Part shown: piece by piece, positions 60,619 through 61,561 of the stretch
Layout of the letters: every line of letters begins with the position of its first letter
Numbering within the stretch: position 1 is the first letter of the stretch
Origin: Thermococcus aggregans
Lineage (GTDB): Archaea; Methanobacteriota_B; Thermococci; Thermococcales; Thermococcaceae
NCBI RefSeq assembly: GCF_024022995.1
Contig: NZ_CP099582.1
Span: 868,001 to 932,000 of the forward strand
Direction: 5' to 3'
Length of the DNA: 64,000 nt
Notes under the pieces: generated by a model
Told to the model about the DNA's origin: nothing
Database searches by the model: none
Seen by the model: only the letters and a program-made list of their open reading frames with translations
Made by a program: the position numbers and the translations under genes

Positions 60619-61038
60619 TCACTCTTCAACGATTAGCTCAACGATGGCCTTTTGCTCCGGGTTTTTCAGCTTCTCTATTAGTTCTCTCTTAATGTCCTTT
60701 GCCGCTTTGCTGGCCTTTATTGCAAGGGTTCTTCCATCTACATAGTCGCTTTTCCTAATAACCATAGAAAGCTCGCTCTCAAAGCTCAGCCTTGAATCCC
60801 CAAGAGCCTCAACTTCATCGACAATCTCATCGACAATTATCCTTATTTTGATCTTTTTTCCCTGTTTCAAAGCTTCCTTTATCCGTTCATCAAGGTCTTT
60901 GAGTGCTTTGTTGGCCTTTATGCATATTATGCAGTCCCCCCTTGGCGTTAGATAACTCTCTTTCGTTATCTCCAGAGTTGAGCGGTGGGTTGCCTTTACG
61001 TTTTCATGTCCATAGCAGACAATGGTTTCCTTAATCAT
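60619..61038 (-). CDS. DUF371 protein
   Basis: A 139-residue archaeal protein. ATG 61038 is chosen because the conserved N-terminus MIKETIVCYGHENVKATHRS starts there and GGAGGAGGTCAG lies directly before it. Also conserved: TLEITKESYLTPRGDCIICI. It shows alternating strands and helices and a pair of cysteines in DCIICIKANKALKDL that might bind metal. No function is established for this family. The ribosome site is part of the structured element at 61040-61260. Confidence 0.88.
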   Translation of the reverse strand: MIKETIVCYGHENVKATHRSTLEITKESYLTPRGDCIICIKANKALKDLDERIKEALKQGKKIKIRIIVDEIVDEVEALGDSRLSFESELSMVIRKSDYVDGRTLAIKASKAAKDIKRELIEKLKNPEQKAIVELIVEE

Positions 61039-61039
61039 C

Positions 61040-61260
61040 TGACCTCCTCCCCGTCGTGAAGGCGGAGGTTCCCAACATGGGAACTTCGGTTGCGGTAAAC
61101 CGCATACGGCTCGGTCAGAGAGCCCTCCACCCAACGGACATGCCGCTGGGCATCATCAACAATACGTACATTCACAAACATCATAAACTTTACGTAGTAG
61201 TAAAGCGGGCTTTCCTCCACGCTGTGAACGGCAAGGCTTCAGCTCACAATGATGGTGAGA
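61040..61260 (-). ncRNA. G+C-rich multi-hairpin element, likely a solo TnpB-type omega-RNA or other structured RNA
   Basis: On the minus strand the element folds into a row of hairpins: CTCAC/GTGAG (61255-61259 with 61243-61247), CTTTAC/GTAAAG (61200-61205 with 61188-61193), GGCTC/GAGCC (61120-61124 with 61108-61112), GCGGT/ACCGC (61099-61103 with 61092-61096), GTTCCCA/TGGGAAC (61078-61084 with 61068-61074) and CCTCC/GGAGG (61064-61068 with 61043-61047). The last 80 bases are far more G+C-rich than the genome around them. Tandem hairpins ending in GGGGAGGAGGTCAG are what I recall from right ends of IS605/IS1341 (TnpB) elements of Thermococcales. There is no tnpB gene here. It could instead be a leader that regulates the DUF371 gene. 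Confidence 0.55.
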
Positions 61261-61275
61261 ACCTTTGAAGGGAAG

Positions 61276-61309
61276 CTTTATAAATTTGGCTGGGAAAAGT
61301 TTAAAACAG
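61276..61309 (+). promoter_or_regulatory. Promoter region of rps17e with two TATA-like boxes
   Basis: CTTTATAAATTT (61276-61287) and AAGTTTAAAACA (61297-61308) precede the S17e gene by about 80 and 50 bases. The second would place the transcript start near 61330. Confidence 0.55.
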
Positions 61310-61357: not shown

Positions 61358-61561
61358 ATGGGAAACATTAAGCAAGGTTTCATTAAGAGAACCGCGAGAG
61401 AGCTCTTCAACAGATATCCAAACGAGTTCACAAGGGACTTCGAGCACAACAAGAAAAAGGTTGAGGAGCTTACAAACGTCACAAGCAAGACCATAAGGAA
61501 CAGAATAGCCGGCTACATAACAAGGCTTGTAAGGCTTAAGGAAGAAGGAAAAATCCTCTAA
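61358..61561 (+). CDS. rps17e: Ribosomal protein S17e
   Basis: Small-subunit ribosomal protein shared by archaea and eukaryotes. 67 residues: [20 protein letters not shown] then [20 protein letters not shown] and [19 protein letters not shown], matching the family over its whole length. A GGAGGGATG site precedes the ATG. Its stop overlaps the convergent ArsR gene by 4 bases. Confidence 0.97.

Follow-up and report, generated by a model that had tools for sequence, protein, structure and literature searches.

What is the hairpin-rich block that touches the start codon of a DUF371 gene in Thermococcus aggregans, and does it serve that gene? A reading made from the sequence alone placed it at positions 61030–61270 of the 64,000-nt stretch analyzed here (the window), and compared it with the right end of a TnpB-type (IS605/IS1341) element lacking tnpB, acting either as an orphan guide RNA or as a leader regulating translation. 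The sequence does contain the features it described, namely hairpins, a G+C-rich block and a 3′ end that abuts the ATG, and the G+C-rich stretch ends in GGGGAGGAGGTCAG immediately 5′ of the DUF371 ATG.

Empty and occupied alleles of the DUF371 junction

Orthologous sites are empty in seven congeners (G005, G006, and G008 to G012), where nothing lies between the TATA region and the ATG. The empty site reads TATA-TTTTTAC/ATG in G006 and G008, and TATA-..ATAC/ATG in G005 and G009 to G012 (slashes mark junctions). One empty allele is TTTATAAAGCTTCCCTTTAAAGGTTTTTAC/ATG, and the occupied allele of the window is ...TTCAAAGGTTCTCAC/216 bp/ATGATTAAGG. The insertion is precise, directly after TCAC and before the ATG, and generated no target duplication. 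Its mapped limits (61254..61039) fall within the interval of the sequence-only reading. It consists of a left end, its own TATA box and an omega-RNA/HgcC right end, and its neighbors are a divergent S17e gene (61358–61558, PF00833) and the DUF371 gene (61038..60619). The features of the locus are as follows:

61277..61284, minus strand: TATA box native to the DUF371 gene, TTTATAAA; at the empty sites of congeners it is conserved, about 23 nt upstream of the ATG
61255..61258, minus strand: TCAC left flank, the insertion motif and presumed TAM, which flanks nearly all related left ends
61039..61254, minus strand: solo element without tnpB, 216 bp, delimited by empty-site comparison and family alignment
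61205..61247, minus strand: imperfect palindrome of the left end (GTGAGCT..GAAGCC..GGAGGAAAGCCCGC), with some decay, recognized by alignment with other left ends
61181..61191, minus strand: internal TATA-like box AAAGTTTATGA, with AAAGTTTAT conserved in family members
61039..61044, minus strand: GGTCAG 3′ terminus, pseudoknot 3′ strand and TCAG right-end motif
60619..61038, minus strand: DUF371 gene, 139 aa (Pfam PF04027, E 3.8e-51)

As archaeal transcription starts about 23 bp downstream of the TATA box (PMC4247193), the spacing at the empty sites indicates that the DUF371 gene is, by sequence, natively leaderless. Among more distant Thermococcaceae, the majority of readable loci have the same TATA–ATG arrangement. 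A scan of named genomes for DUF371 gave only five loci, of no help in judging occupancy, and no DUF371 was found in the viral contigs screened.

Insertion at a fixed motif without duplication, a hallmark of the IS200/IS605 group, is observed at the empty sites of DUF371 and of a related element of the same genome (L077), and in the TCAC flank of the family. Subterminal palindromes, a second hallmark, occur at both ends: the left one carries one mismatch, and the right-end hairpin is present in weakened form. Drift is visible in the left end (GTGAGCT for GCGGGCT) and in the weak terminal hairpin (CCUCCG..CGGGG), and this decay suggests that mobility may be lost. On these comparisons the 216-bp segment is a non-autonomous, MITE-like element of the IS200/IS605 group and not a native leader.

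Three congeners (G002, G003, and G007) carry at the same junction before DUF371 another tnpB-less element, 408–412 bp long with an HgcC-like 3′ end (L005 1537–1948; L090 2438–2845; locus L004 of G007). Its junctions read TTTTTAC/CACCTGAAAGCC...GGGGAGGAGGTCAG/ATG. The left flanks of this ~410-bp family are mostly TTTAC or TTAC, whereas the family of the window element prefers TCAC. One ancestral insertion common to T. aggregans (G000) and these three genomes was rejected, as the resemblance between the elements is limited to the region of the right end and their flanks differ. To judge from the sequences, the insertion in the window is independent and the junction has been occupied at least twice. 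We built a tree of the locus from three flanking genes, leaving out the flanking DNA because non-homologous flanks distort the tree. Empty G006 falls beside G002, empty G008 beside G003 and G007, and G000 outside. Between G002 and G003, the ~410-bp element is 97% identical and the flanking genes 89%. The empty sisters and this difference in identity indicate that the ~410-bp element was either gained twice or precisely lost.

An HgcC-type RNA and its relatives

At the gathering threshold, Rfam recognizes only a tRNA in the window and nothing at the element. In E-value mode, the covariance search suggested along with the sequence-only reading returned an HgcC match (RF00062) at 61127–61026, covering the full model length (1–130) with 46.7 bits (E 1.2e-9), a score below the 50-bit gathering cut-off. 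Other copies in the same genome score 27–122 bits. The conserved HgcC core, CUGACC ... GUUCCC/GGGAAC ... GGGGAGGAGGUCAG, is present. Over its 3′ 100 nt the element agrees in sequence and fold with HgcC RNA, an archaeal omega-RNA-like end of IS200/IS605 elements, and it has the same terminal GGGGAGGAGGUCAG and guide-side position; it differs by its lower score, by a shorter central domain and by directly abutting a start codon. The predicted RNA comprises:

61039..61160, minus strand: HgcC-like omega-RNA scaffold (Rfam HgcC, 46.7 bits; covariation), with a predicted start near 61160
61150–61130, 61124–61108, 61104–61091 and 61084–61068, minus strand: four supported hairpins
61113..61118, minus strand: CUGACC, pseudoknot 5′ strand pairing with the terminal GGUCAG, paired in five of five sequences

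The fold was assessed on an alignment of five related elements at unrelated sites, two of them close relatives. They have 31 pairs in common, and 98.7% of the cells are paired. Five pairs show the compensating two-sided changes on which the sequence-only reading had staked its proposal, against a shuffle mean of 1.5 (2 of 500 shuffles as high), and no comparable score arose when the pairing was slid along the alignment. The pseudoknot is nearly invariant, with one A-U to G-U change among the five sequences, and is thus backed by complementarity, not by covariation. Folding energy by itself is moderate evidence (z = −2.9 for the transcript against dinucleotide shuffles, 0 of 200 as good; z = −1.9 for the core alone); strong support comes from the homologs. 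The 121-nt core has 61% G+C, compared with 43% for the window, and is better kept than the spacer (106 of 121 and 15 of 32 positions identical to L002, respectively). The conserved AAAGTTTAT box sits ~22–25 nt 5′ of the conserved GATGATG that opens the RNA core, which makes a promoter within the element probable. A pseudoknotted scaffold followed by a flank-derived guide is the organization of OMEGA RNAs, and the predicted RNA has it.

Relatives were sought with the element sequence and a sequence model made from it. Full-length tnpB-less relatives at unrelated loci (L002, 207 bp; L003, 203 bp; L022, 202 bp) share 73–75% identity. In a different genus of the family, several genomes contain 160–177-bp tnpB-less copies, nearly all following TCAC; across Thermococcaceae, tnpB-less relatives span 160–215 bp. 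Such 160–177-bp solo HgcC elements are numerous in G045, G044, G042, and G043 (L158–L169), several of them at orthologous positions. Autonomous versions of ~1.3 kb, with the same left-end palindrome and an HgcC-type right end, were identified in five cases (L077 from T. aggregans itself, L089, L156, L168, and L170). Assignment to a TnpB-type right end is thereby borne out, both by the HgcC match and by these relatives, which also dispose of the objection that no similar element might lie near any tnpB gene in Thermococcales. In all five, tnpB runs antisense to the right-end RNA, and tnpB and the omega-RNA would have divergent promoters. As the HgcC transcript of Pyrococcus furiosus is antisense to its transposase gene (PMC4247193), this arrangement was already known. 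L156, which bears tnpB, has a TACTACTAC..AAAGTTTAT promoter segment in common with the window copy, which suggests an internal deletion of tnpB as the origin of the solo form.

The L077 element (G000:C1:728779–730048; L077 1280–2549) encodes a TnpB of 368 aa that matches PF07282 and whose alignment with solved TnpB/Cas12f structures takes in the RuvC motifs and zinc knuckles. The T. aggregans genome has about ten TnpB genes, this one inside a full element of the same family, in agreement with the suggestion that a TnpB is encoded elsewhere. The solo element has no cognate tnpB of its own, so that TnpB would be supplied solely in trans. Y1 TnpA (PF01797) has no match in this genome and is present in 5 of the 13 congeners.

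Related arrangements have been described. Like the PATEs of Haloquadratum, the element is a transposase-free IS605-type unit with near-terminal palindromes, and some PATEs arose when IS1341-type elements lost their core (PMC3119063); unlike it, PATEs are haloarchaeal with no guide RNA described, whereas the window element keeps an omega-RNA with its own TATA box. The TnpB omega-RNA systems ISDra2 and SisTnpB1 also combine a right-end scaffold, a flank-derived guide and a TAM corresponding to the left flank (PMC8612924, PMC10640517). Their tnpB lies upstream on the same strand; the window element lacks it, and its autonomous relatives carry it in antisense orientation.

Putative ribosome site and predicted guide of the DUF371 gene

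Two further features overlap the junction between element and gene:

61043..61050, minus strand: putative Shine-Dalgarno sequence GGAGGAGG for DUF371, proposed from sequence and spacing statistics
61019..61038, minus strand: presumptive guide, the first 20 nt of DUF371, which, like the guides of TnpB omega-RNAs, follows the right end on its 3′ side

The first GGAGG (61050–61046) is 7 nt from the ATG and the second (61047–61043) 4 nt. Since spacing is 7–9 nt in 22 of the 30 window genes with a Shine-Dalgarno sequence, the value of 7 nt fits, and GGAGG may well be, as first proposed, both the end of the element and a ribosome site. The right end of the element would thus replace leaderless initiation with a normally spaced Shine-Dalgarno sequence, which is partly paired in the fold predicted for the whole leader. 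Right ends do not generally donate a ribosome site: in 13 congeneric genomes, GGAGGAGGTCAG ends touch an ATG in 4 of 144 cases, all four at DUF371.

We consider it very probable that a solo HgcC element inserted after TCAC before DUF371, provided the gene with a leader and a Shine-Dalgarno sequence, and still encodes a predicted guide RNA. An element with opposite-strand tnpB, having probably lost this gene, would have landed downstream of the transcription start of the leaderless gene and upstream of its ATG. The native promoter would now transcribe it as a 216-nt 5′ leader, whose G-rich right end, by its position and spacing, would act as the Shine-Dalgarno sequence, and the internal promoter could produce the omega-RNA alone. 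The same transcript end would remain readable as an omega-RNA guided by the start of DUF371, as the sequence-only reading had supposed. This guide has a single perfect match in the genome, itself, and no second match with fewer than three mismatches, which leaves the element-free DUF371 allele as the only sensible target. With TnpB from elsewhere in the genome, the RNA might cut element-free alleles and so favor persistence of the element.

HgcC RNAs are transcribed in T. kodakarensis, where HgcC4 and gene TK1679 have a common transcription start (PMC4247193). This tnpB-less HgcC, sharing its start with a protein gene, is similar to the present case; it differs in that it was placed inside the 5′ part of a hypothetical gene, with no empty site or ribosome-site role reported. 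The IS605 stem-loops beside lipoprotein genes of Borrelia are likewise solo ends fixed next to host genes, but they lie at gene 3′ ends and donate no ribosome site (PMC2775950).

Several other readings were weighed against insertion of an HgcC element. A native riboswitch-like leader unrelated to transposons would account for the 5′ leader position and the several hairpins; it is refuted by the seven empty congeners, the copies at unrelated loci and the HgcC match. A functional orphan guide RNA, serving a host TnpB in trans as a homing or retention device against insertion-free DUF371 alleles, is a serious possibility that falls a little short of an even chance. It would make the ribosome site a side effect and is compatible with the preferred reading, to which it adds a function in trans. 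Conservation of the core and pseudoknot while the spacer drifted argues for it, as do the TnpB genes of the genome, including that of L077, the lack of another close guide match, and the identity of TCAC plus guide with the inferred empty site; the weakened terminal hairpin near the guide and the lack of TnpA argue against it. The decay of the left end and terminal hairpin, the missing TnpA and the confinement of ATG-abutting ends to DUF371 are what one would expect of a dead transposon relic, with DUF371 translated from a fortuitous GGAGG. Such a relic is conceivable, if somewhat doubtful, given that the window copy keeps 31 of the 31 core pairs and retains the internal TATA box.

Because the GGAGGAGGTCAG used for initiation doubles as the pseudoknot end of the RNA, one may also imagine an exapted regulator, in which the structured leader, and TnpB bound to it, controls DUF371 translation. 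The overlap of Shine-Dalgarno and pseudoknot strands speaks in its favor, and the presence of two unrelated families at the identical junction in four genomes hints that a leader is tolerated or favored. Nevertheless, the insertion is patchy, G006 and G008 being empty despite their close kinship with other occupied genomes, and the window insertion has no ortholog in the genome set; we regard regulation as improbable. The leader and its ribosome site proposed by the sequence-only reading are thus supported by position and empty sites, but no evidence was found for the regulation.

Apparent translation signals at the ends of sister copies

Earlier work had already described HgcC copies that stand alone and tnpB in antisense orientation (PMC4247193), as well as IS605-type units without a transposase (PMC3119063). 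What appears to be new is the empty-site demonstration that a gene predicted to be leaderless gained a leader and Shine-Dalgarno sequence through an element, the finding that two families have each settled at this junction, and an apparent regeneration of stop codons and Shine-Dalgarno sequences by element ends, for which we found no paper among the openly licensed ones searched. The locus offers a clean natural experiment, in which a leaderless archaeal gene acquired a structured leader and Shine-Dalgarno sequence while close relatives keep empty or differently occupied alleles, and it shows HgcC RNAs as stand-alone omega-RNA elements. It is further suggested, in a directly testable way, that some IS200/IS605-group ends may carry translation signals sparing the genes between which they land.

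Many sister copies lie between two genes, and their ends apparently recreate the stop codon of one and the ribosome site of the other. TCAC, the insertion motif, is complementary to GTGA, which combines a stop codon with the tail of a Shine-Dalgarno sequence. On the opposite strand, ...GGAG/GTGA or a close variant, followed by an ATG 8–10 nt past the junction and an open frame, occurs at 10 of 20 distinct left ends (one false match, L093, left out), a small sample of copies that are not all independent, compared with 5.4% of TCAC sites in the window, the single stretch that supplies the background. An upstream opposite-strand gene stops exactly at the TGA of cTGAcc in 7 of the 15 elements with both ends read.

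L077 is an example: in 11 congeners its empty site reads GGGTGAT..ATG. GG/GTGA was split by the insertion; the left end restored GGAG/GTGA, and the right end, read backwards as cTGAcc, restored the upstream stop (GGC TGA for GGG TGA, as the codons read in the sequence). Apparently, then, the right end would restore the stop and the left end the Shine-Dalgarno sequence after insertion, while on the other strand the right end would offer GGAGGAGG to a gene such as DUF371. We consider it rather unlikely that, beyond this, the whole family is designed to reside unnoticed at translation junctions and that its omega-RNA is also a translation module, perhaps one controlled by TnpB. Regeneration of both signals on the strand opposite to the omega-RNA is seen at L077, L022, L129, L133, and L135.
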